Below, one piece after another: positions 29,303-43,020 of a DNA stretch of 43,199 nt (positions are counted from its first letter, which is position 1; the number at the start of each line of letters is the position of its first letter). The notes under the pieces were generated by a model, which was given only the letters and a program-made list of their open reading frames with translations, was not told where the DNA came from and made no database searches. Source of the DNA: Terriglobia bacterium (GTDB lineage Bacteria; Acidobacteriota; Terriglobia; UBA7540); contig JAIQGA010000004.1 of NCBI GenBank assembly GCA_020072925.1, forward strand, positions 1 through 43,199, read 5' to 3'. The position numbers were made by a program, and so were the translations under genes.

Positions 29303-30838
29303 CTACCTGGTCATCCAAGATGGCGGAGGAGTCGGAGGATAGGAGCTGGGACGGCTTTCCGACCCGGGACCGCTCCCTGTATCAGAGGGTCGTGACGGCC
29401 CGGCTCCGGAACCTCGACCGCCTCGACGACCGTAGGCGCACGTTATCAAGTAGCGCTGCGAAAAAGGCAACAACACCAAAGCGGAAACTCCCATAATCAG
29501 GATGAATCCTGCCTTGAGGAATAGCAGTAATGGCGACACAGCCCATGCTAAGTCGATGATCAAAACCAGAGGGAAAACGCGGTGAAAGAGGCAGCCCAGG
29601 TCTTCGTAATCAAAGGCCGCTGCGGCCAGCAAGTAGATTCGCATCGTGGCTGCCGAACACAGGAAGACCAGCGTGCCCGTAACGAATTGAGTCACTCCGA
29701 GATCCTGAATGAACTTCGGCAATCGATGAGCATTTTCCGGAAGGTAATGAAACGCCGCCGCGTACATCACCAGGTAGCCAATCTGAATCACGGTGAATAG
29801 GGAACAGGCGACTCGCCGTGATACTGGTGGCGGAGGACTGCTATTGCGCTGCAGCCCGGAACCCTTGATGACGTCCCGGAGCTTAGTGAGGTCGGCGAGC
29901 AATTCCTGGACGGAAGGATACCGGTCCTCGGGACGCTTGCGGAGGCACCTGCGAAGGATCCGGTCGAGCTCGGCGTAGTTTGGGCCGAGAGAATCGAGAT
30001 GCGGCAGAGGGGGAACTTCCATGTTCAGGACTCGACGGCGTGCGGAATCACTGTCGCCCCCCGAGGCAAATGGATTGAAGCCTGCCGTCATTTCGTACAA
30101 AGTTAAACCAAGAGAATAAATATCCGTTCGTTCGTCCACCGGCTCAGCGCCCGCTTGTTCGGGAGACATGTAGTCGGGGGTGCCGATTACCATGGCGGTG
30201 GATTTGCCGCTCAAGTCCTCGAAGATCGTCCCTCCTCCATCCTTTTGAACCGATTGGGAGTAGACCTTCACCTTCTTCGCCAGGCCAAAGTCCAGAACCT
30301 TGATATGGCTTGACCCGTCCGGCTGAGGCGTCAACATGATGTTCTTGGGTTTGAGGTCACGGTGAATGAATCCCTTGGCGTGAGCCGCTACTAAGGCACT
30401 TCCGATTTCGATGCCAATGCTTAGGATCTGGTCAATCGAGAAGCGCCTCTGTCCAAGAAGGCTATAAAGAGTTTCCCCCTCTACAAACTCGTAAATGATG
30501 AACACCATCTCGGCGCCGTCATCATATATGTAGGTGCCCTTTACTACGCCGGGATGGTTGATGACGACAGTGGCATGGACTTCGAGGCCTACACGTTGAC
30601 GAAATTGGGGGTCGCGGAGAAGCTCAGGCTTGATTCGCTTGAGCGCTACCGGACCCTTGACATTCATATCGAAGGCGCGATACACGTCGCCCATGCCTCC
30701 ACCATCGATGAGGCCCTCAATCCGGTAACGACCATCCAAAACCTCACCAGGAGAGAGCACACTGCTTTTTCGGGTCTCCCTCGGGAGGCGCCTGGACCCA
30801 GGTTCGTCGTCGGCGCGGGTCTCGTCTTCATCACCCAT
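29303..30838 (-). CDS. Membrane-anchored Ser/Thr protein kinase (511 aa)
   Basis: Hanks-type kinase. The domain spans about residues 38-310 with the Gly-rich loop GGGMGDVYRAFD, catalytic Lys in PVALKRI, HRDLKPKNIML and DFGLAKK, then GTPDYMSPEQAG and DIYSLGLTLYEM. The C-terminal third has four hydrophobic segments (LFTVIQIGYLVMYAAAF, FVTGTLVFLCSAATMRIYLL, FPLVLIIDLAWAVSPLLLFL, GFILIMGVSALVLLPF), so the kinase faces the cytoplasm and has no external sensor domain. The tail after them is Gly/Ser/Pro-rich. I start at ATG 30836-30838, since upstream residues do not resemble the family. It follows the DSP phosphatase gene by about 105 bases, giving a possible kinase/phosphatase pairing. Confidence 0.9.
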   Translation of the reverse strand: MGDEDETRADDEPGSRRLPRETRKSSVLSPGEVLDGRYRIEGLIDGGGMGDVYRAFDMNVKGPVALKRIKPELLRDPQFRQRVGLEVHATVVINHPGVVKGTYIYDDGAEMVFIIYEFVEGETLYSLLGQRRFSIDQILSIGIEIGSALVAAHAKGFIHRDLKPKNIMLTPQPDGSSHIKVLDFGLAKKVKVYSQSVQKDGGGTIFEDLSGKSTAMVIGTPDYMSPEQAGAEPVDERTDIYSLGLTLYEMTAGFNPFASGGDSDSARRRVLNMEVPPLPHLDSLGPNYAELDRILRRCLRKRPEDRYPSVQELLADLTKLRDVIKGSGLQRNSSPPPPVSRRVACSLFTVIQIGYLVMYAAAFHYLPENAHRLPKFIQDLGVTQFVTGTLVFLCSAATMRIYLLAAAAFDYEDLGCLFHRVFPLVLIIDLAWAVSPLLLFLKAGFILIMGVSALVLLPFSQRYLITCAYGRRGGRGSGAGPSRPSDTGSGPGSESRPSSYPPTPPPSWMTR

Positions 30839-30944
30839 GGTGGCCCCCAGAAACTGGATTAATTCACGGCGCGCGCCCGTCTTCCTGCTGCTGGTCCGGG
30901 CGGGGCTTCCTGGCACGCAGCGGGCAAGCCCCTGCTGCTTGGTA

Positions 30945-31490
30945 CTACTTTCTTTCTGGCGTGTCGCCGGCCGGCCGCGGCGGTGTGAATGCGTAGAGTT
31001 GGTACTTCAGACCCCAGTACCACCACCGCATCCCCAGGGCCCGCGCTTCCCGATAGGCGGCACGACCGCTCCAGCCTTCATCAACGATGCGATAGAAGCC
31101 GATCATGGCGCCGGTCCGATCTGCCCCTCTCCGGCAATGAACGAACACAGGCCGGTTCTGGGGATTGCGGATCACCGCCAAGAAGGCCTGAATTGCCTCA
31201 TCGGACACCCGCTTGCCGGGGCTGATCGGAAGGGAGACATACTTCATTCCCAACTGCTCGACGAGACCCTTCTCGTCATTTTCCCCGCGCAGATTGATGA
31301 CCGTCTTGATGCCTCGCCACTTCAAGAACTGAAACCCCGCCGGGGTTGGCTGCCCGCCGCGATACAGGCCCGGCGCCACTTGCCGAAAACGCGGCACTGC
31401 CGCCCCAGCCATCTCAGGGTCTTCCCCGGTTATGCGCACCCCGAGCGCTACCAACCCGGCCAGTAGGACTAAGACCACCGCACGTTTCAT
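30945..31490 (-). CDS. Exported dual-specificity/tyrosine phosphatase-like protein (181 aa)
   Basis: Cys-based phosphatase of the DSP/PTP-like family. The P-loop VHCRRGADRTGAM gives the HCxxGxxR signature, with a possible general acid Asp upstream. An N-terminal hydrophobic segment (VVLVLLAGLVALGVRI) should anchor or export it, so the catalytic part would be periplasmic. The gene start overlaps the stop of the cNMP gene (ATGA at 31487-31490), so the two are translationally coupled. The phosphatase substrate is not known; family members include phosphoinositide-type and protein phosphatases. Confidence 0.85.
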   Translation of the reverse strand: MKRAVVLVLLAGLVALGVRITGEDPEMAGAAVPRFRQVAPGLYRGGQPTPAGFQFLKWRGIKTVINLRGENDEKGLVEQLGMKYVSLPISPGKRVSDEAIQAFLAVIRNPQNRPVFVHCRRGADRTGAMIGFYRIVDEGWSGRAAYREARALGMRWWYWGLKYQLYAFTPPRPAGDTPERK

Positions 31491-31963
31491 GAACGCGGAC
31501 CCAAACCCAGCTTGGTGACGAAGTGCTTGAAGATGCTCACCACGATTTCCATGTTATTGGACAGCAGGGTGTAAAGATCCTCCCCCGTAATGGCGAGCGC
31601 CGTCGTGGGTTCGAGAACCGTCGCGGTCGCGCCACGCGGCTCGCGCGTCAGGACGGAATAGAGTCCCACGGCTTCGCCAGGCCCCACTACTTGGCGCCCC
31701 TTTTTGCTTTCGAAGGTCAGCTCGGCGCTCCCTTCAACCAGCACATAAAAGGTATCACCGATATCGTTTTCACCGAAAATAACTGCCGCGGGAGCAAACT
31801 CCACGACCCGAGCGAGGCCCGCCAGGCGATACAGCTCATCCACCGTTGCCTGCGAGAAGATATCGACGCCCCGGATCAGATCGGCTTTGCGCAGCGTGGT
31901 GAGAGCGAGCGCGCTGTGACGTACTCCTGCGCCCGAGGGGAACAGATTCGATTCATCGCCCAT
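31487..31963 (-). CDS. Cyclic-nucleotide-binding-domain protein (158 aa)
   Basis: A single cNMP-binding (CRP-like) beta-roll without a DNA-binding domain: VDIFSQATVDELYRLAGLAR, then VVEFAPAAVIFGENDIGDTF and YVLVEGSAELTF, with GPGEAVGLYSVLTREPRGAT. The phosphate-binding cassette is not canonical (no clear GE followed by RxA), so it may not bind cAMP. GGAGGG eight bases before the ATG is a strong ribosome site. The gene starts 11 bases inside the end of the NTT-HEAT gene and overlaps the DSP phosphatase start, so the three should be made together. Confidence 0.82.
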   Translation of the reverse strand: MGDESNLFPSGAGVRHSALALTTLRKADLIRGVDIFSQATVDELYRLAGLARVVEFAPAAVIFGENDIGDTFYVLVEGSAELTFESKKGRQVVGPGEAVGLYSVLTREPRGATATVLEPTTALAITGEDLYTLLSNNMEIVVSIFKHFVTKLGLGPRS

Positions 31964-34607
31964 GGGTGATTCCCTCCTCGATTCGGGTTAAGAGCGGCTC
32001 CAATCCGGTGACCTCCGGCCAGCGCCCTTTCCGAACCGCATCGGCAGCGCATTCGCGAAGGATCCGGTCAGGATTACTCAGGCACGCCTCAAGAATCTGT
32101 GCCGTGGTTTGTTCTGTTTTCAGCCAGCGCGCCTTGGGCTCGACGAGTGGGAGAACCACGTCCCTCAGCTTGCCCGGCAGCAGGTTGTCCAATAGTTCCG
32201 TGACCTTGGCCACGGCCAGGCGGTCGCCCTCCCGGAAGACAAGAATGGAGCCAATCGCCGCGCGCGGAGGCAACAGCAGGGCAAGCAGGCGAAAGACCCG
32301 GTCCTTCCCTCGCTCGACCTTGTCCTTGAAAAGCTGCAGCAAGAGGTCTCTGCTGCCATCTCGTGGGTACAATGCGGCGCGAGCTTGCTGGAACCACCTG
32401 GCCTTTTCACCATCTTCGCGGATACGGCAGACGATCTTGTCGGAATGAAAGCGAAGGCCGGGATCGACCAGCCGCAGTTTATCCAACGCACGGATCGAGC
32501 GGTAGCGCACCAACCCGTCGTAATCAAATAGAGCATTCAGCAGGATGTCCACGGAAGCTTGGTCGGGAACATAGGCCAAGACGAGCGGGATGCTTCGCCG
32601 GACCTCGATGTCCTCGCTGGGGTCCTGGAGCGCGTCCGCCAGGGTTCCGAGAATGCGGCGCTCGTACTCGCGCAGCGTCAAGCGCACATCCGGCGCCCAT
32701 TCCGGGTCACGTAGCAGCGGAATGAGAAGGGGAACGAGCTCGCGGTGTCCGGCGCGGCCGGCGCTCAAAATCGCCTGCCTCCTCACCGCCGGATCGGGAT
32801 GCTGGAGCAAACGAAGATGCAGTCCCACTGCCTCGGGGTGGGCGATCTCTCCTAACGCCGCGGCCACATCCTTCCATTGGGTCGAACCTGGTTGCAGACC
32901 ACGAGCAATCTGCTCGAGTTCGTTCCTGACGGTGCCCTTGGGAAGATCGCGGTCATGTCGAATCATGGCCATCAGGGCCGACAACCGCACATGGAGGTCA
33001 GGCGACTGAAGGAACGGTGAGACCGCCGCAGACGGTCGGACCACCGACGCTCGCCTGGCGACAGCGAGGATCGCGCTGGCGCGCATGAGGGAACTGCTGT
33101 CGTTTTGGACACGATCCAGCAGTTCTTGATCGGTGAGCGTCAGAACCTCCATGGCCCTCGCCCGAACACGCTCGGAAGGGTGCCTGATGAACTCGCGCGG
33201 AATCCACTCCGGGTGACGGGCCTGAAGCGCCATCTCCATAGCTGTGAGTACAACTTCCTCATCCTTCGAAGCCAGCAGGGTTTTGACGCTGGGAAGTGAA
33301 TTGTGATCGATGATCGTCCTGATGACTTCTCTACCGAGATCGCGTCCCTCCAACACGGCTTTCCAAAGTGTATGGACATACTCACTCCGGGTGCGGAGCG
33401 CGATACCGACCCATGCCGCCAACAGAACCAGATCGAGAACGCACAAGCTCACTTGACCGCCCTTCAGGGCACGCGTCACCAAGAGCACCAGCAGTGCGCC
33501 CACGCCATCCGCGACGCGCTGCATCACCATATCAATCACCGCTTTGACTTCAGACTTCGTGGATTGCGGTAAGGGGAGATAGAGCAGTTCGGTTGTGGCC
33601 CGATCGACCGAATAGCGGAGGGTATGGTCGCTGCCCTTGAGCACGGCGCCAGCCCAAAGGGCCAAGGGAAATGCCAGGAGGACCAACGTTCCTCCCGTGA
33701 GAGCCAAGGGCAGTACCAGAATCATCCATTTGACGCCGAACTTGCCCACCAACCAGGAGCCTGCTAGCACCTGGAGCAGGAAAGACAATAAGCTGAAGCA
33801 AGCGGTGAAAGATCCCATGAAGCGGGTGATGTCGTTCTTAAGGGGAAAAGCGTGCTTCACGACGTCGGCGAACTGAATCCCCACCACCAGGGTTACGATG
33901 TTGGAAAGCGCCAGCAAAACGACAATCAGTTTCAAATAGGGTGAACTTTTGATGGTCCTGAGAGCCGTCGAGAAATTGATCAGCCTCGGCTTTTTCCCGT
34001 GCGGTGCGCGAGAGTGGCTGTGGCGCGACAGGAGAATCTGCGCAAGGATTCCCGCCAGCACCAGCAGCGGGATGAGCAAGAGCATCAGGTTGTCCGTGCC
34101 CATCGACCGGGCAAGCCGCGCAGCGGCCAGCCCTCCCAAAAAGCTTCCCAGGATTGCCCCGCTCGAAATCAAAGGAAATAGACGCTTCGCCTGGCGCAGA
34201 TCCAGAACCTGGTTGGCCACCGTCCAGACCTGCGTGATCACAATGATCCCGAAGATGCTCGTCCACACATAAAATATCCGGGTGACCGGCGCCCACTGCC
34301 GTCGCACGGCCCACCATTGCAGCAGGACATTCAGGATGAAGAAGAACAGGCTGGCAACGATGATTGCAGCCTGTCCGAGGCGCGCTGCGGCTCGGATGTA
34401 TATCCACACCACGAAGCTGATGACGGCGGCGATGGCCAAGTACACATAAGGCAACTCATAGGCGCTGAACTTGTAGAGGAAGAGTCCATCGCGAATGACC
34501 TTGGTGATGACGTATGAGGCCATGATAAGTGTGAGGTAAGCAAAGAGCAGGAAGGCTGGCGCTTCCTCACCGCGCTCGAGGTTGAGAAAGGAGCGGAGAC
34601 GATCCAT
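31953..34607 (-). CDS. NTT-like (ADP/ATP carrier-type) transporter fused to HEAT repeats (884 aa)
   Basis: Inner-membrane protein. The first 420 residues hold about a dozen hydrophobic segments with the pattern of the Npt1/Npt2 nucleotide transporter family (ASYVITKVIRDGLFLYKF, IYVWT-like WTSIFGIIVITQVWTVANQV, FPLISSGAILGSFLGGLAAA). The remaining 460 residues are HEAT-type helical repeats (for example REFIRHPSERVRARAMEVL, HPDPAVRRQAILSAGRAGHR, LRDPEWAPDVRL). The fusion suggests regulated transport or a sensor rather than an energy-parasite carrier. Substrate residues cannot be assigned by eye. It is first in a compact minus-strand group with the cNMP and DSP genes. The start ATG 34605-34607 lacks a strong ribosome site. 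Confidence 0.82.
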   Translation of the reverse strand: MDRLRSFLNLERGEEAPAFLLFAYLTLIMASYVITKVIRDGLFLYKFSAYELPYVYLAIAAVISFVVWIYIRAAARLGQAAIIVASLFFFILNVLLQWWAVRRQWAPVTRIFYVWTSIFGIIVITQVWTVANQVLDLRQAKRLFPLISSGAILGSFLGGLAAARLARSMGTDNLMLLLIPLLVLAGILAQILLSRHSHSRAPHGKKPRLINFSTALRTIKSSPYLKLIVVLLALSNIVTLVVGIQFADVVKHAFPLKNDITRFMGSFTACFSLLSFLLQVLAGSWLVGKFGVKWMILVLPLALTGGTLVLLAFPLALWAGAVLKGSDHTLRYSVDRATTELLYLPLPQSTKSEVKAVIDMVMQRVADGVGALLVLLVTRALKGGQVSLCVLDLVLLAAWVGIALRTRSEYVHTLWKAVLEGRDLGREVIRTIIDHNSLPSVKTLLASKDEEVVLTAMEMALQARHPEWIPREFIRHPSERVRARAMEVLTLTDQELLDRVQNDSSSLMRASAILAVARRASVVRPSAAVSPFLQSPDLHVRLSALMAMIRHDRDLPKGTVRNELEQIARGLQPGSTQWKDVAAALGEIAHPEAVGLHLRLLQHPDPAVRRQAILSAGRAGHRELVPLLIPLLRDPEWAPDVRLTLREYERRILGTLADALQDPSEDIEVRRSIPLVLAYVPDQASVDILLNALFDYDGLVRYRSIRALDKLRLVDPGLRFHSDKIVCRIREDGEKARWFQQARAALYPRDGSRDLLLQLFKDKVERGKDRVFRLLALLLPPRAAIGSILVFREGDRLAVAKVTELLDNLLPGKLRDVVLPLVEPKARWLKTEQTTAQILEACLSNPDRILRECAADAVRKGRWPEVTGLEPLLTRIEEGITHGR

Positions 34608-35011: not shown

Positions 35012-36337
35012 ATGATGCCGCAGTGTCTACGGCGATTCTGGGCGAGGCTTCCGGCATCCAACCGATACGGTTTCACTAGAGCCCGGTGGCCCTGGTGGGG
35101 GATGGTATTGCTGCTTCTGGCGCTCAGCCTGCCGCAGCTTGCAGTTGCACAAGAGGATTCCAGGGCGGCGGAGATCGGGGCCGCGCGCAAGGAAAAATCC
35201 CAAAAGCTTCAACCCGAGAAGTCGTCCAAAACGGAAAGCGCTCTGCTGGCTTTCAAGGATAAGAAGATCCTGGAGCGCATCTCCTACGGCATCGGAGGCT
35301 TGCGGGTCAAGCTGGGCGGCATGGTCCAAGGGGGAGGCTTTGGAATTGGGCCGGAGTATTTTCGGCCTGACCTCGCGAAGGGGAATCTGGTGTTTCGCAC
35401 CGCCGCGCAGGCCTCAATCCGCGGATATCAGCGCTACGACATGGAATTCGGCGCTCCGCATTTTGCGCGCAACAAGTTGTTCTTGAATCTCTTTGGTGTC
35501 CACCACGACTACACGGGGATCAATTATTACGGGCCAGGCGCCGATTCGAAACGCGCCTCGCGGACAGACTTCCGCATTATTGACACCTCCACCGACGGCA
35601 CATTCGGGATTTTGCCTGTCAAGCACATGAAGATGGGTGTGTCGGGCGGCTATTTGCTGGTGACTTTGGGGCCGGGACAGGATACACGCTTCGCCTCCAC
35701 GGATAAGGTTTTTTCACCGCAACAGGCCATCGGCATTGATACGCGCCCCGACTTTGTACGCCTAGGAACATTCGCCGAGTATGACTATCGCGACAATCCC
35801 GGCGGCCCTCGGACCGGCGGCGACTACCTCGTCCAGTTCGACCGTTATTTGGCCCGACCTCGCACCGGCAACGACTTCCGCCGGCTGAAAGTCGATCTAC
35901 AACAGTACGTTCCCGTCTTCAACCGGCGCCGGGTGCTGGCCCTGCACGCTCAGTCCGTGCTGACCTATCCGGATGGCCAGAGTGTGGTTCCCTTTTACCT
36001 CCAGCCGGTTCTCGGCGGCTCGGAAGACCTGCGCGGGTTTCGCTCCTTCCGCTTCTACGACAACAATCTGATCCTGGTGAATGGCGAGTACCGGTGGGAG
36101 GTTTTCAGCGGCCTCGATATGGCCCTGTTCGCAGATAGCGGTAAGGTCTTTCATCGCCACGCGGACTTGAACTTCCGCAACATGGAAGCTGACTTCGGAT
36201 TCGGCTTTCGCTTTAACGTTCGTAACAATGTCTTCATGCGCATTGATACAGCATTCAGTCACGAAGGTTTCCAGGTATGGTTCAAGTTCAACAACGTTTT
36301 TGGTGACGAGCGCATTCGCTCTTCAAGATTCCGGTAG
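35012..36337 (+). CDS. Omp85-superfamily (D15-like) outer-membrane barrel (441 aa)
   Basis: Outer-membrane beta-barrel. The N-terminus has basic residues and a signal segment (MVLLLLALSLPQLAVA before QED), then a basic/acidic linker with no POTRA domain. The barrel is rich in aromatic-ended strands. It has the superfamily's lid-loop-like motif, GGSEDLRGFRSFRFYDNN followed by EYRWEVF. A missing POTRA region makes it unlike BamA; it is closer to the small D15-only proteins. Two adjacent ATGs occur, and GGAGG lies 11 bases before the first. It is followed 23 bases downstream by the secreted kinase-like gene. Confidence 0.82.
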   Translation: MMPQCLRRFWARLPASNRYGFTRARWPWWGMVLLLLALSLPQLAVAQEDSRAAEIGAARKEKSQKLQPEKSSKTESALLAFKDKKILERISYGIGGLRVKLGGMVQGGGFGIGPEYFRPDLAKGNLVFRTAAQASIRGYQRYDMEFGAPHFARNKLFLNLFGVHHDYTGINYYGPGADSKRASRTDFRIIDTSTDGTFGILPVKHMKMGVSGGYLLVTLGPGQDTRFASTDKVFSPQQAIGIDTRPDFVRLGTFAEYDYRDNPGGPRTGGDYLVQFDRYLARPRTGNDFRRLKVDLQQYVPVFNRRRVLALHAQSVLTYPDGQSVVPFYLQPVLGGSEDLRGFRSFRFYDNNLILVNGEYRWEVFSGLDMALFADSGKVFHRHADLNFRNMEADFGFGFRFNVRNNVFMRIDTAFSHEGFQVWFKFNNVFGDERIRSSRFR

Positions 36338-36360
36338 ATTCCGGAGTGGAAGGCTGCATC

Positions 36361-37992
36361 ATGGCCACCGACGGTTTGCGAAGCGGAAAAGCATTGTGGG
36401 GAATGACACTACTCTTGCTTCTCGCGGCCCCGGAGTTGGGAGCGGTGAAGTTCCACGCCGACGATCCTCTGCAAAAAGAACCCGCGCCCATGAACGCCCC
36501 GAACATCAAACCTCGGAAGCTGAGCGATTACTATGACTTTTTCCAGAACACTTTTGCCAAGCCGGGCCATCCGAAGAAAGGGAGCAAGCGCCTTCCTGCG
36601 CAGGGCGTGAACACTCTCGGCGAAGTTCCCGACAGCCCCTGGTATACCAACCGGCATGGGAAGACGCCCATGACGATTCAGGAATTGGTCCGTGGACCCG
36701 GTGGCGAAAACCAGCCCGACACCAGCGGCCCGCTCACCGTGGTGGCGGCCAAGACCGAAGGCGTGATGCCCGGGTTTACGATGAAGGATGCCAAGGGTCG
36801 CAAATACTTTGTGAAATTCGATCCGCTCACCAACCCGGAGATGGCGACCTCGGCCGACGCCATTGGCGCGAGGTTTTTTTACGCGCTCGGCTACAATGTT
36901 CCCGAGACTTACATATTCACCTTTACGCGGGAGCAACTCGTGATCGCCCCGGATGCCACCATCAAGGACGCGCGGGGAAAGCGACGCCCGATGAATGACC
37001 GGGATGTGACGGACCTCCTCCTCCAGGTTCCGCAGAGGCGGGATGGCCGCTACCGGGCGGTAGCCAGCGTGTTCCTTCCCGGGAGTGTCGGCGAATTTCG
37101 TTACCACGGCACGCGTTCTGATGATCCCAACGATGTTGTCGCGCATGAAAACCGGCGTGACCTGCGGGGCTTGCGCGTCTTCTGCGCCTGGCTGGGTCAC
37201 GACGACTCGCGTGCCATCAACACGCTGGACAGGCTTGTCCAGGAAGACGGCACTCAATTCCTCCGGCACTACCTGATCGACTTCGGCGCCATTCTGGGGA
37301 GTGATAGCAACTGGCCGAATAGCCCTCGCTCCGGCAACGTGTACTGGTTCGACTGGAAGACGTCCGCCGCGCAGTTCTTCTCGCTCGGTCTGGACGTTCC
37401 GCGCTGGGCGCGCGCCAAGTATCCGCACCTCCCCGCCGCGGGCCGCTTCGAGTCGGCAATCTTCGACCCCGAGCGCTGGGTGCCCTTCTACCCCGATCCG
37501 GCTTTTGACAATTGCCTCCCCGATGACGCCTTCTGGGCCGCCAAACAGGTCATGGCTTTCTCGGACGAGCAAATTCGAGCGATCGTAAAGACAGGCGAAT
37601 ACAGCGATCCGGCCGCGGAGAAATGGGTCGCCGATTGCCTCATCGCGCGGCGGGACAAGATCGGGAAAGCCTATTTCGCAAAAGTGCTCCCCCTGGACCG
37701 TTTCGCGATCCGACAAGATCGCCTGGTCTTCGAAGATCTGGCTGTGAACCACAAATTCAGCGCAGCGCGTGATTACACCGTTCAGTGGTCGCGGTTCAAC
37801 AACCAGACCGGACAGAAAACTCCGTTGCCCGGAGAAACGACCCTGGCATTGCCCCGACAACTTCAGGAAGCCTCGTCGGGCGAGTATTTTGCCTCCGACA
37901 TTTTTGGCGGCGAGAAGCGGAAGTCTGTTACAGTCTATCTCCGCAAGAAAGCCGGACAGGTCGAAGTGGTGGGCATCGACCGCACTTGGTGA
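36361..37992 (+). CDS. Secreted protein with kinase-like motifs (543 aa)
   Basis: I do not recognise this family by name. The start is ATG 36361, because GGAAGG lies seven bases upstream, and a signal peptide (ALWGMTLLLLLAAPELGA) follows. The mature protein shows features of a kinase-like fold. GFTMKDAKGRKYFVKFDPL gives a strand pair with a lone Lys, SADAIGARFFYALGYNVPE follows, then VASVFLPG. AWLGHDDSRAINTL resembles a D-x4-N catalytic loop, and HYLIDFGAILGSD has a DFG. HipA-, PI-kinase- and FAM20-type kinases share such spacing. If real, it would phosphorylate a periplasmic protein or lipid, although ATP is absent from the periplasm. It sits between an Omp85 barrel and a PAP2 phosphatase. 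Confidence 0.7.
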   Translation: MATDGLRSGKALWGMTLLLLLAAPELGAVKFHADDPLQKEPAPMNAPNIKPRKLSDYYDFFQNTFAKPGHPKKGSKRLPAQGVNTLGEVPDSPWYTNRHGKTPMTIQELVRGPGGENQPDTSGPLTVVAAKTEGVMPGFTMKDAKGRKYFVKFDPLTNPEMATSADAIGARFFYALGYNVPETYIFTFTREQLVIAPDATIKDARGKRRPMNDRDVTDLLLQVPQRRDGRYRAVASVFLPGSVGEFRYHGTRSDDPNDVVAHENRRDLRGLRVFCAWLGHDDSRAINTLDRLVQEDGTQFLRHYLIDFGAILGSDSNWPNSPRSGNVYWFDWKTSAAQFFSLGLDVPRWARAKYPHLPAAGRFESAIFDPERWVPFYPDPAFDNCLPDDAFWAAKQVMAFSDEQIRAIVKTGEYSDPAAEKWVADCLIARRDKIGKAYFAKVLPLDRFAIRQDRLVFEDLAVNHKFSAARDYTVQWSRFNNQTGQKTPLPGETTLALPRQLQEASSGEYFASDIFGGEKRKSVTVYLRKKAGQVEVVGIDRTW

Positions 37993-38021
37993 AACACAAA
38001 AATCTTTAGCTCCAGGCCGCA

Positions 38022-38960
38022 GTGGGAACCACTTCATTGAAGAACCGCTCCCGTTGTTTAATCCTTGTTCAGGTGGTCGCAATGCTCCTTCTGGCCGGCC
38101 GAGGGGCACTGGCCAACGACCCGGATACTCCCCTCCAGGAGCAGCCTTCGGCCTCTGCGGAAGAATCGAAAGACCAACAGCAGGATGCGGCGGCTTCGTC
38201 AAACGCCTCATACACCGTGAGGGGGTTGCCGGGTGAAATCTTCCGAGACCAGAAATTCATCTGGCTGCGCCCTTTTCGGTTGGAGCGTGAGGACGCATCC
38301 TGGTTGGCATTGATTGCTGGTGCCACTGCCGGGATGATCGCGACCGACCGGCGTGTGGGCCAAAGCCTTACCCGATCGCCACCGGGCTCCGGCTATGCCT
38401 TCAGCAACCGTGCGGGACAACTAGGTGGCGCCTTTACGGACGTGGGGGTCGCGGGTGCCTTTTATCTTGTGGGCCACTGGCGCCAAGATGAAAACACACA
38501 ACTGACGGGACTTCAGGGTTTTCAGGCGCTCGCCGAGAGTTTAGTCGTCGTCGAGGTCCTGAAGGTTGTAACCCAGCGCCCCAGGCCTGCGCAGCCCGGC
38601 GGCCGGGTGCGCATTCACGGTGCCGACGGTCAATTCTTCACGGGCGGATACTCTTTTCCTTCTGGCCACGCGGCGGGAGCCTGGGCCCTCGCGGCGGTGA
38701 TCGCGGAACGACATCGCCACAGCCCGTGGGTGCCAGCGACTGCTTACAGCCTGGCGGGACTCGTGTCTGCGGCACGCGTCACCGACCGCCGACATTTTCC
38801 CTCTGACGTTTTTGTCGGCAGCGTGCTCGGATATCTCATTGGTCGCCATGTAGCACACCAGCATTCGAGCGAATCTTCCAGCAGGCTATCACACCTTCGT
38901 CTCCAGCCCTTCGCGCCACCGGGCAGAGGCTCTGCGCTCGAACTCTCCTGGCAGTTCTAA
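38022..38960 (+). CDS. Exported PAP2-family phosphatase (312 aa)
   Basis: Type 2 phosphatidic acid phosphatase fold. The three catalytic motifs are present: KVVTQRPRP, PSGHAAG and ARVTDRRHFPSDV. The N-terminus is hydrophobic (CLILVQVVAMLLLAGRGALA) and should be a signal peptide. A Gln/Glu/Ser-rich linker follows (SASAEESKDQQQDAAASS). The GTG at 38022 is the first in-frame candidate; a TTG at 38037 is possible. Expected role: periplasmic dephosphorylation of a lipid or polyprenyl phosphate. It lies 29 bases after the kinase-like gene, on the same strand. Confidence 0.88.
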   Translation: MGTTSLKNRSRCLILVQVVAMLLLAGRGALANDPDTPLQEQPSASAEESKDQQQDAAASSNASYTVRGLPGEIFRDQKFIWLRPFRLEREDASWLALIAGATAGMIATDRRVGQSLTRSPPGSGYAFSNRAGQLGGAFTDVGVAGAFYLVGHWRQDENTQLTGLQGFQALAESLVVVEVLKVVTQRPRPAQPGGRVRIHGADGQFFTGGYSFPSGHAAGAWALAAVIAERHRHSPWVPATAYSLAGLVSAARVTDRRHFPSDVFVGSVLGYLIGRHVAHQHSSESSSRLSHLRLQPFAPPGRGSALELSWQF

Positions 38961-38978
38961 TCGCGAATTGCTGGACGC

Positions 38979-39448
38979 ATGGCGGGCAAAGACTTGGCCG
39001 GCTGTGTGGTCGGTCAGTTGCTTGGCGCAACGGCGGCGGCTGCCGTTTTGGTGGTCATCGCTAAGGCCTTTTGAGCGGTTACAGTCTCGCCAGCAGCGGC
39101 TTGGGTCAGAACAGGTGGGGCGAAGGCTACGTGGGGGGATATGCGCTCTCTGCCGCCGTGGTCTTCGAACTGGCCGCAACTCTAATTTTTGTCATTGTCA
39201 TCTTAGGTTCAACACAGGGCGGAGCGCCGACGCAAATGGTGGGATTGGCGATCGGGATCACGCTGGTGGCGATCCACATCTTCGGGATCAAAATTACGGG
39301 AGTCTCGGTCAATCCTGCTCGTGGCCTGGGTTCGGCGCTTTTCGTGGGCGGCAAGGCCATCTCCCAGGTATGGAAGTTTCTGATTGTTCCGAGCATCGGT
39401 GGAATCCTGGGGCGAACAATTTTCCGCACCAAGGTCCTGGCTGTGTAG
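38979..39448 (+). pseudogene. Aquaporin (AqpZ-like) gene remnant, N-truncated and frameshifted
   Basis: An aquaporin lacking its first half. From 38979 one frame reads AGKDLAGCVVGQLLGATAAA, which resembles the region after the first NPA, and then meets TGA at 39072. The next frame begins at TTG 39071 with SGYSLASSGLGQ, and continues to VSVNPARGLGSALFVGGKAI, holding the second NPA box and ending at 39448. The frames differ by one base, so an indel near 39068-39072 broke the gene. The first NPA and helices 1-2 are missing, and the remnant starts 18 bases after the PAP2 stop codon. Confidence 0.82.
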
Positions 39449-39953
39449 GTTCGTCCGGCTTGTGCCTCATTCAACCTCCTCTGCTCGCTCGAAGCCCGCA
39501 GCGAGTTGTGTGGCGCGAGGTTTGTCTACTGTGCGGCGAACAAATCCAGTCACCCGCTTTCGCGAGGCACGAGCCTCGCCGTTGGTCTTGGTAACCGCGC
39601 GGCCAAAGACCAACGCTAACAAAGCGGGATTGCGCGTTTCTCTTGGACTTAGTTCTGGGGCGGCTCGAAATGGAGAGCGAAGTTGTTCCCTCTCAGGCCG
39701 CGGTGAGCTGCACCGTAAAGTGGAGGCATCGGGTGGCGCTTGGTGAGCCAAAGACCGCTCCCGCAAAAAGAATTGCGACATTGCAGGATTACTAAGGATA
39801 GCGGCTGGATGTATACTTACCGGGACGCGGAAGACCAAAATGGACATTCCGGCTGATGCGTTTGAGCTCACGAACCCTCGCCGGCGATCGGTACCGTGGG
39901 CGACGAAGGCCTGTGGACGCACAGGTCCAGTGATCCCAATGGGAGAGGTTCTT
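39449..39953. other. Intergenic region after the aquaporin remnant
   Basis: 500 bases with no gene I can support. Short frames occur on both strands. A frame opening at 39840 runs into the DUF3300 gene, but its first 38 codons are unlike the family. Confidence 0.4.
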
Positions 39954-41279
39954 ATGCGAAAAGCTTTGGCCTTAACGCTGGCGCTTTGCCTGCTCAATGT
40001 TTCCGGTCTCGCCGCCGCTGCGGCGAGCCCCGCTCCGGCTCCACGACCTTTGCCGCAAGAGGATCAGGGTTACGTTCCGTACTCTCCGGAGCAACTCGAC
40101 AACCTGCTCTCGTCTATCGCGCTCTATCCTGACCCGCTGCTGGCCCAGCTTCTTCTGGCGGCGACCTTTCCAGACCAGATCGACGAAGCGGCACGCTACG
40201 TGCGCGCGTACGGCTCCAACGGTATCGACGACCAACCCTGGGATGTGAGCGTGAAGGCGGTCGCGCACTACCCTTCCGTCGTTTCGATGATGGCCGACCG
40301 ATTGGATTGGACCACGGCGCTCGGCCAGGCCTACGTGTACCAATCCACCGACGTGATGACTTCCGTCCAACGTCTGCGCGCCATGGCGCAGGCGCAAGGC
40401 AATCTGGTCACCACCCCCCAGCAGCGAGTGATTGTCGAAGGCGGCGTCATTCGCGTGTGGCCGGAGAATCCGCGGCTCATTTACGTTCCCGTGTACGACC
40501 CGGCGATTGTCTACGTTCGCCGGCCGCTCTTGGGCGTCGCCATCAGCTTCGGCATCGGTCTCCTGATCGGCGCATGGCTCAACCACGATTGTGACTGGGG
40601 CAGGCACCGAGTTTACTATACGGGTTGGAGTGGAGGTGGATGGGTCGGGCGCTCGCGGCCGTACGTGCAAGTAACCAACGTTTACGTCAACAACCGATAC
40701 ACGAACGTCGTCGTCAATCGAACCGTTGTGAACCGGCCGGTGAACTACACGGCGATCAACAATTATAATTCCGTGCACCGCGACGTGAGGTTCGACAATC
40801 ACGCTCGAAATGTTCCGCCCCCTAACACGAATTATCGCCCCGTCAACCGGAATATCGATCGCAACATCAATACGCGCGATCCCAGGCTCGATCAGTACCG
40901 AGGGCACCAAAACCAGCCGCAACCTGCTCAGCAAGGCGACAGGGTGCAGTACAATCGTCCAGGGGTGGGAGAGGCAAACCGCACGGCCGCGCAACCCGCA
41001 AGGCCCGCACCTCAGGGGAACCAACGGAATCAACCTTACGTACCTGCCCGTCCGCAGGTGAATCAGCCCGCCTCCCCGGCGGCACAGCGCCAGGCGCAGC
41101 CGGCGCCTCACGCATTTGGGAGAGGCGAGGGTGGATTCCCCGCCAAAGAAGCATCCCAACGTGGGCAGGAGAGCCGAGCCAGCAAACCCAGCGCTCCCAC
41201 TCGGCCCGCGCCAGGCCGTGAGAATCGCGGCAACGAGAAGCGTGTCAATGAGAATCGTGGCAACGAGAAACGCAAATGA
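39954..41279 (+). CDS. DUF3300 domain protein, secreted (441 aa)
   Basis: Exported protein of the DUF3300 family, function unknown. The start at ATG 39954 follows GGAGAGG and begins a signal peptide (MRKALALTLALCLLNVSGLA). The DUF3300 core is YSPEQLDNLLSSIALYPDPL, LAQLLLAATFPDQIDEAARY, AVAHYPSVVSMMADRLDWTT and GQAYVYQSTDVMTSVQRLRA, ending VYDPAIVYVRRP. A hydrophobic stretch (VAISFGIGLLIGAWLNHD) and a long Asn/Arg/Gln/Pro-rich low-complexity tail follow, ending in repeats of ENRGNEKR. The tail may bind polyanions. It is paired with a DUF2950 gene 71 bases downstream. Confidence 0.9.
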   Translation: MRKALALTLALCLLNVSGLAAAAASPAPAPRPLPQEDQGYVPYSPEQLDNLLSSIALYPDPLLAQLLLAATFPDQIDEAARYVRAYGSNGIDDQPWDVSVKAVAHYPSVVSMMADRLDWTTALGQAYVYQSTDVMTSVQRLRAMAQAQGNLVTTPQQRVIVEGGVIRVWPENPRLIYVPVYDPAIVYVRRPLLGVAISFGIGLLIGAWLNHDCDWGRHRVYYTGWSGGGWVGRSRPYVQVTNVYVNNRYTNVVVNRTVVNRPVNYTAINNYNSVHRDVRFDNHARNVPPPNTNYRPVNRNIDRNINTRDPRLDQYRGHQNQPQPAQQGDRVQYNRPGVGEANRTAAQPARPAPQGNQRNQPYVPARPQVNQPASPAAQRQAQPAPHAFGRGEGGFPAKEASQRGQESRASKPSAPTRPAPGRENRGNEKRVNENRGNEKRK

Positions 41280-41350
41280 GATCCAGAGGGCTTCATGCGA
41301 TCTGCGCAGGTAAACGCCGCGAGAAGGTCCATGCAGGAGGGTAGAGTACG

Positions 41351-42403
41351 ATGATAGCTAATCCAGAGATGAGGTCGCACCGGTGGATGCTAGGCGCGCC
41401 GGATGTCCGGAGTGGGGTGATCTGCCTGGCTGTCGCGCTGGTCTTAGCTCAACTGCTTGGCTTCGCGACTCGCCTCCGGGCGAAGAGCGGGGCGCAGGCT
41501 GCGCCTCAAGAGACTTTCGCGTCCCCCCAGGAAGCTATGTCAGCACTCGTTCGGGCCGTGGAGGGGCGAGATCAGAGTGCCCTCGCTATGATTTTTGGGC
41601 CCGATTTCAATCAGTTCCTCTCCGGTGACCCGGTCGAAGACAAGAAGGACTTAGATGATTTCGCCGCTGGCCTCCAGGAAAACGCCCAACTCCGGGAAGA
41701 CAGCGACGTCAAGTACACGCTCCTGGCCGGGACGAATAATTGGCCAACACCAATTCCCATCGTGAAGCGCGGCGAGAATTGGGTGTTCGATACGAAGGCC
41801 GGGCTCGAGGAGATTCTTAACCGACGGATCGGGGAGAACGAACTCTCAGCGATCAATACCTGCCGGGCTTACGTTCTGGCCCAATGGGAGTATTACACCG
41901 GCGACGATGGCGATAACGATGGCCTCGCCGAATACGCCCAGAAATTCTTCAGCTCCCCTGGCCAGCACGATGGGCTTTATTGGGAAACCTCCGGGGACGA
42001 AAAACCAAGCCCCTTGGGCCGCCTCGTGGCAGAAGCGCGGGCCGAAGGTTACGGCCCAAAGGCCCAGGTTAGCGGGGACAGGGCAAAGACAGAGCAAACT
42101 GAACGCCAGAGTTCCGGGGGCCCGCGGCATCCCTACCACGGGTATTATTTCAAGATCTTGACGCGCCAAGGGCCCAGTGCCCCAGGCGGAAAGTTCAACT
42201 ACATTATCAACGGCAACATGATCGCGGGATACGCGCTCGTTGCCTACCCGGACAAGTGGGGGAACTCCGGGGTGATGACGTTTATCGTCAACAACCAGGG
42301 CCGCGTGTACGAAAAAAACCTTGGCGAGAACACCGCGAAGATTGCCAGCTCGATGACCGACTATAATCCGGACCCCAGTTGGAAACTCGTAGAGGGACAG
42401 TAA
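41351..42403 (+). CDS. DUF2950 family protein, secreted (350 aa)
   Basis: DUF2950 protein, function unknown. An N-terminal membrane or signal segment (VICLAVALVLAQLLGFA) precedes FASPQEAMSALVRAVEGRDQ, then the characteristic GRLVAEARAEGY and GYYFKILTRQGPSAPGG, with YALVAYPDKWGNSGVMTFIV near the end. AGGAGGG lies nine bases before the ATG. It follows the DUF3300 gene, a pairing often seen in Acidobacteriota and Proteobacteria, so they probably act in one periplasmic complex. A weak hairpin (CCGGCAAAACCGG) lies just after its stop codon. Confidence 0.9.
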   Translation: MIANPEMRSHRWMLGAPDVRSGVICLAVALVLAQLLGFATRLRAKSGAQAAPQETFASPQEAMSALVRAVEGRDQSALAMIFGPDFNQFLSGDPVEDKKDLDDFAAGLQENAQLREDSDVKYTLLAGTNNWPTPIPIVKRGENWVFDTKAGLEEILNRRIGENELSAINTCRAYVLAQWEYYTGDDGDNDGLAEYAQKFFSSPGQHDGLYWETSGDEKPSPLGRLVAEARAEGYGPKAQVSGDRAKTEQTERQSSGGPRHPYHGYYFKILTRQGPSAPGGKFNYIINGNMIAGYALVAYPDKWGNSGVMTFIVNNQGRVYEKNLGENTAKIASSMTDYNPDPSWKLVEGQ

Positions 42404-42627
42404 GTATCCGCCGGCAAAACCGGTGGGTTCCCTATTGATCCACACGAACGGTTTACAGTCATGACCCAGTGGGTCGGTCGATTTCTAAGCAGTTGAGAGT
42501 GAAGTTGATCGGAATTACGTCTTCTGGGGTGCTCGGATACGCGCCATCGTAGAAGATGAACATCCTTTGGGGGTCAATCTCAACTACACCGCAGAACGGG
42601 TTTCCACGATCCCGCACGCGGAAGCCG

Positions 42628-42840
42628 CACCGCATCGCCAGCCGGCCGTTCAAGTTGGAGGAGGCGCTGGACCTGGCCATTCAGATCGCCGATGCGCTCG
42701 ATGCGGCGCATGCCAAAGGCATCATCCATCGCGACGTCAAACCCGCAAACATTTTCGTCACGACGCGGGGCCAGGCAAAGATTTTGGACTTCGGACTGGC
42801 GAAACTCGCCCCCGCCGGGCCCCAGGCTACCGCAGGCATG
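42628..42840 (+). pseudogene. Ser/Thr kinase gene fragment
   Basis: A piece of a Hanks-type kinase, starting near [17 protein letters not shown] and running through [20 protein letters not shown] (HRD catalytic loop) and ILDFGLAKL (DFG). The N-lobe (Gly-rich loop and catalytic Lys) is missing upstream, and the P+1 loop and the rest of the C-lobe are missing downstream; an open frame spans 42556-42915. It cannot be an active kinase. It is not the 5' or 3' part of the kinase at 29303, whose HRD region differs. Confidence 0.75.
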
Positions 42841-43020
42841 GGCGCCTCGGCCTTGCCCACCGCCGGCAGCTCTGAAGATATCCCACGCGCCCAGCGCATA
42901 GTTGATTCGGCGTAAGGCGTGTGGCTGATTTCCAATTCCATTCGTGCAACCGTGCGTGTCTCCCCGGAGTATCGTGTGCAGGGCGAGAAAAGTCCCCCCA
43001 AGCGGCGCCACCAGATACCG

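Follow-up and report, generated by a model that had tools for sequence, protein, structure and literature searches.

A kinase-fold protein family with signal-like N-termini is paired with an Omp85-superfamily barrel and linked to NTT-family transporter genes in acidobacteria

The window analyzed here, a stretch of 43,199 nucleotides of Terriglobia bacterium contig JAIQGA010000004.1, carries three adjoining genes, named BAR, KIN and PAP2, of which the second encodes a protein with a signal-like N-terminus and a predicted kinase fold. The catalytic residues of this fold are intact, KIN forms a conserved pair with the barrel gene BAR, and NTT-family transporter genes lie beside the pair far more often than expected by chance. 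This acidobacterial gene set suggests phosphorylation outside the cytoplasm. Our preferred, still tentative, explanation is that KIN and BAR constitute an envelope module in which KIN would be an exported phosphotransferase, with its donor nucleotide supplied through the linked NTT carrier. The genes that bear on this proposal are as follows.

35012..36337, plus strand: BAR, an Omp85-superfamily outer-membrane barrel of 441 amino acids (Pfam PF01103, AlphaFold2 model, Foldseek)
36361..37992, plus strand: KIN, a kinase-fold protein with a signal-like N-terminus, 543 amino acids from an ATG start (motifs, AlphaFold2 model, structure comparison)
38022..38960, plus strand: PAP2, a PAP2-superfamily phosphatase of 312 amino acids with a GTG start and a hydrophobic N-terminus (PF01569, motifs)
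31953..34607, minus strand: NTT-HEAT, an NTT/TLC-family transporter domain with fused HEAT repeats, 884 amino acids, divergent from BAR (PF03219)

An initial annotation of the window had described the first three genes as co-directional and as encoding a D15-type barrel, a kinase-like protein and a PAP2 phosphatase, and each of these identifications held. The intergenic gaps are 23 and 29 bases, BAR matches the Pfam Omp85 family (PF01103; 47.9 bits against a cut-off of 24, E 1.8e-12), and the third product matches PF01569 (E 2.4e-22) and bears the KxxxxxRP and PSGH motifs that place it in the PAP2 superfamily. All three proteins open with one strongly hydrophobic N-terminal stretch; the KIN reading frame has an alternative GTG start at 36346.

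Fold, catalytic residues and distribution of KIN

A scan of GTDB genomes yielded 485 relatives of KIN. Locus counts given below rest on the best 79 of these, the AlphaFold2 model and residue counts on an alignment of 71 relatives, and a wider residue survey on 63 more diverse homologs.

KIN comprises a signal-like N-terminus (residues 1-28), which is found in its relatives as well and by which the protein is presumably exported, a kinase core (residues ~110-442) and a beta-rich C-terminal domain (residues ~445-543). In agreement with the initial annotation, which could assign it to no family, neither Pfam nor NCBIfam contains a model that KIN matches, and sequence comparison with the PDB returned nothing credible. 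Its AlphaFold2 model (pLDDT 92, pTM 0.90) has a two-lobed kinase fold by the model itself, by Foldseek and by VIA-align. The best Foldseek matches were Fam20C/Fam20A (E 8.5e-6), followed by CtkA (E 2e-3). When the kinase core was compared by VIA-align, CtkA ranked first (Z 14.9, rmsd 4.2, 231 residues aligned), followed by Fam20C (Z 13.8), type II PI4-kinase (PI4KII; Z 13.7) and HipT/HipA (Z ~11-12). Since these Z values lie close together, KIN can be placed in the CtkA/Fam20/PI4KII/HipA branch of kinase folds and not in any one of its families. A viral fold library gave generic kinase-fold matches only. At the sequence level, weak matches (E 5e-4 to 1) to HipA_2 (PF20613; 8 of the 71 relatives, best E 5e-4) and HipA_C (PF07804; 5 of 71, best E 5.6e-3) were seen, and HipA_2 was weakly matched by 12 of 25 relatives in a more diverse set, the KIN of the window itself having no match. 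Sequence homology to E. coli HipA was considered and rejected, as hhalign profile comparison detected nothing.

The kinase-like motifs noticed initially are real and the predicted structure is likewise kinase-like. K152 is retained in 69, D282 in 70, N287 in 69 and D307 in all 71 of the relatives; equated with kinase residues by motif order, not by superposition, K152 corresponds to the beta3 lysine, D282 to the catalytic base, and N287 and D307 to the metal ligands. Among the 63 more diverse homologs, 48 keep all four residues and 15 have lost at least one, so that most of the family looks active, with some degenerate members at its edge. The suggestion of a pseudo-kinase sensor therefore suits this minority, but not the KIN of the window, which is intact.

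The best 79 loci are labelled Acidobacteriota almost throughout. One, labelled Arcobacter sp. (L110), has the gene order of Bryobacterales loci and is for that reason probably a mislabelled bin. One relative, at L089, comes from a cultured acidobacterium, Edaphobacter aggregans. Among 297 sampled genomes of the phylum, 61 have a match at E 1e-3, which in some cases is to a shorter related family alone, and no relatives were found in plasmids and viral contigs. KIN occurs as a tandem duplicate at L049 and L061, and a second BAR-KIN pair is present at L071; BAR adjoins there too. Apparent fusions of ~1000 amino acids at L010 and L035 (the same gene as at L028) were rejected as a shadow reading of the upstream gene in high-GC DNA. 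At L012, L013, L036 and L037 there are KIN paralogs with altered catalytic residues and a C-terminal extension of 400-600 amino acids that looks like real protein; the extensions appear mutually related by eye, and the two that were searched (L013 and L036) have no Pfam match.

The shorter family (~330-400 amino acids; L031, L033, L034 and L125-L142, P0001-P0003) occurs in the same phylum and is also predicted to be exported. By hhalign it is related to the kinase core of KIN (probability 98, E 3.8e-14), and it retains the lysine, the D-x4-N motif and the later aspartate; a BAR-type barrel lies directly upstream in 2 of 18 loci.

By its predicted structure, KIN is an undescribed family of kinase-fold proteins, predicted to be exported, in many acidobacteria. 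No description of periplasmic kinases of this kind, or of this gene set, was found in the open-access literature searched; the family and the gene combination are new to the sources searched, while the individual parts are of known kinds.

Pairing with BAR and linkage to NTT transporters

The AlphaFold2 model of BAR (pLDDT 86.6) has 16 predicted strands, of which the 11th and 12th flank an RGF motif, and its nearest Foldseek matches are BamA/TamA (E 6e-13). Before the barrel the model has helices only and no POTRA domain. BAR adjoins KIN in essentially all of the 79 loci, excepting those cut by contig ends. Clustering of open frames around KIN gave a BAR cluster in 77 loci and PAP2 in 13, the remainder, other than transporter frames, being sparse or shadow frames. 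The trio therefore stands as a cassette in part: BAR and KIN are neighbours across the family, but PAP2 lies within 10 kb in those 13 loci only. The divergence of BAR correlates with that of KIN (r 0.79, equalled in 0 of 2000 permutations), and the correlations among KIN, BAR and NTT (r 0.75-0.81) are such as common descent alone could yield.

ATP is generally assumed to be absent from the bacterial periplasm, and the initial annotation had accordingly found a kinase fold outside the cytoplasm puzzling. The linked NTT-family transporter, which it overlooked, is a candidate answer. In the window, NTT-HEAT matches PF03219 with 57.7 bits (cut-off 21) and the solved plastid NTT 9j3j with E 9.1e-18, and the gene recurs beside BAR-KIN in L047, L050 and L062. 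NTT genes lie near KIN in about half of the 79 loci: direct BLAST and profile searches detect one in 42, and the clustering of open frames gives an NTT-containing cluster in 58. The NTT match follows KIN on the same strand in 24 loci, beginning 36-245 bases after it (downstream NTTs are found at L091, L097 and L104, for example). An upstream position relative to BAR is seen in 8-12 loci, and ~14 contain a second NTT, of the HEAT-fused kind, that lies ~3 kb downstream and points toward the first. All 22 downstream NTTs match PF03219 at E <=0.1 (the first with 67.9 bits), and a profile of the group finds the solved carriers of Chlamydia (E 1.8e-18) and of plants.

To put a chance expectation on this linkage, NTT genes were counted in 49 KIN-bearing genomes. 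Of 79 such genes, 20 lie within 6 kb of KIN, compared with 0.32 expected for an assumed genome size of 5 Mb, an excess of ~60-fold (Poisson tail about 4e-29, with shared ancestry ignored). On the KIN tree, a quick tree with SH-aLRT support only, NTT presence or absence changes 20 times, and the linkage is hence not one inherited arrangement. As a control, the 18 loci of the shorter kinase-like family had no NTT within ~6 kb.

Three further genes of the window adjoin NTT-HEAT.

31487..31963, minus strand: cyclic-nucleotide-binding domain (cNBD) protein, directly after the NTT-HEAT gene (PF00027, E 4.4e-17); linked also in L047, L050 and L062
30945..31490, minus strand: dual-specificity/PTP-type phosphatase with a hydrophobic signal-like N-terminus (PF22741, E 5.2e-23)
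29303..30916, minus strand: Ser/Thr protein kinase (PF00069, E 3.9e-40)

The phosphatase gene, which sits between the Ser/Thr kinase and the cNBD/NTT-HEAT genes and is linked elsewhere in L050 only, is a possible further member of the gene set. Ser/Thr kinases of the same broad family lie beside the BAR-KIN/NTT genes in L046, L050 and L062, and one of ~30% identity adjoins the second NTT in many loci.

Downstream of the cassette, positions 38968-39448 hold the remnant of an aquaporin (MIP) gene, of which only the second half matches (profile positions 126-221) and whose reading frame is broken between ~39070 and 39080. Adjoining DUF3300 and DUF2950 proteins are encoded at 39840-42403, and a short frame at 42556-42915 contains a 15-letter stretch of the Ser/Thr protein kinase catalytic core but lacks a complete domain and probably represents a piece of a gene.

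Possible roles of the gene set

In the explanation we tentatively favor, KIN would be an exported phosphotransferase of the HipA/CtkA-Fam20-PI4KII branch, acting in the periplasm or at the outer membrane as one functional pair with the POTRA-less BAR, with which it may be in contact. Its substrate would be a component of the envelope or surface, be it lipid, glycan or protein. The NTT carrier would bring the phosphate donor across the inner membrane, the likeliest donor being ATP that is exchanged for ADP or a similar compound, and PAP2, where present, might take phosphate off again. The more specific proposal of a dedicated bacterial envelope phosphorylation system, in which NTT exports ATP to the periplasm and KIN with its own BAR phosphorylates components of the outer membrane or surface, is doubtful on present evidence.

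Several observations weigh against this favored explanation. No NTT is present in the flanks examined at 34 of the 79 loci (~40%). Degenerate KIN copies were predicted to be without an NTT, but this was not the case, an NTT being found at 15 of 48 intact and 4 of 15 degenerate copies (p = 1). A post hoc division, on which we do not rely, gave an NTT at none of 8 copies lacking D282, N287 or D307 compared with 19 of 55 others (one-sided p 0.046). Furthermore, some charged positions of the solved NTTs differ here (FYIWVGIFN replaces FYVxAELWG, for example), and a cargo other than ATP is therefore conceivable. By our own count, at least two of the four residues K155, E245, E385 and K527, on which the plant carrier depends, seem not to be conserved, and we know of no NTT of this clade whose substrate has been tested. 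Major and colleagues (PMC5381601) point out that the tests made so far cover little of the diversity of NTTs.

The loci without an NTT, the degenerate copies that are not clearly less often linked to one and the altered charged positions would also fit an active KIN whose donor came by a route other than NTT, such as leaked or extracellular ATP, polyprenyl-phosphate or poly-phosphate, or a SelO-like AMP transfer, with NTT linked for another purpose, e.g., nucleotide scavenging through the envelope. We consider this unlikely in view of the ~60-fold excess of NTT genes near KIN and its recurrence in different arrangements.

Similarly unlikely is a reading in which KIN assists BAR by binding, as a scaffold or as a chaperone, in place of the absent POTRA domains, and has a nucleotide pocket that is regulatory or vestigial. 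The lack of a POTRA domain in the BAR model and the near-constant adjacency of KIN would fit such a role, as would the 15 of 63 homologs that have lost a catalytic residue while the gene was kept and the C-terminal extensions, without a Pfam match, of some KIN homologs. The catalytic Lys, Asp, Asn and Asp are nevertheless 97-100% retained in the 71 relatives, which is hard to explain without catalysis. We regard it as improbable that the NTT, cNBD and Ser/Thr kinase genes form a stress or signalling cluster of their own, with no relation to BAR-KIN beyond an inherited gene order. In its favor, NTT-HEAT-cNBD arrangements are widespread in bacteria, KIN is not mentioned in the consulted part of their description (PMC5381601), and agreeing gene trees are expected from common descent too. 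Against it, both stand-alone and HEAT-fused NTTs occur beside KIN, on either side and in either orientation, with 20 state changes and 20 genes near KIN where 0.32 would be expected.

Two questions become testable where an active-looking kinase fold that is predicted to be exported is combined with an NTT carrier and an outer-membrane barrel, namely that of periplasmic ATP and that of the role of NTT carriers in free-living bacteria, to which none is assigned (PMC5381601). A large soil phylum also gains an undescribed family of kinase-fold proteins that are putatively exported.

Comparison with known systems

The NTT-HEAT gene of the window and the cNBD gene after it reproduce the arrangement that Major and colleagues described for NTT-HEAT-cNBD proteins. 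These authors note that no function is known for the fusions, and the consulted part of their paper (PMC5381601) contains no mention of linkage to a putatively exported kinase-fold protein and an Omp85 barrel. The NTT genes resemble the plastid and Chlamydia NTT/TLC carriers (PDB 9j3j, 9j3n) in their PF03219 and solved-carrier matches, but differ from them at some charged positions. BAR is like BamA/TamA of the Omp85 superfamily in its 16-strand barrel and RGF motif, and differs in having a short helical N-terminus in place of POTRA domains.

KIN itself shares with the H. pylori kinase CtkA, its best VIA-align match, and with HipA/HipT the kinase fold, the D-x4-N motif and the later aspartate. 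Unlike these, it is predicted from its N-terminus to be exported, is paired with an Omp85 barrel, has a C-terminal beta domain and is reached by no family model. The neighbours listed for KIN are BAR, PAP2 and NTT and do not include a HipB-type antitoxin, for which no dedicated search was made. Type II PI4-kinase, a cytoplasmic membrane-associated lipid kinase, is similar over the kinase core (as its Z value indicates), but has only ~10% identity to KIN. The Fam20 proteins, which include the best Foldseek matches, offer the precedent of a kinase fold at work outside the cytosol. They are, however, eukaryotic and disulfide-rich, with ~10% identity to KIN, and the KIN of the window has only three cysteines; the Fam20C sequence family gave no Pfam match at E 1 for this protein and is not among the families listed for the 71 relatives. 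If an envelope-phosphorylation system of the kind considered here proves true, it would parallel, in bacteria, the Golgi arrangement, where Fam20 kinases use imported ATP.

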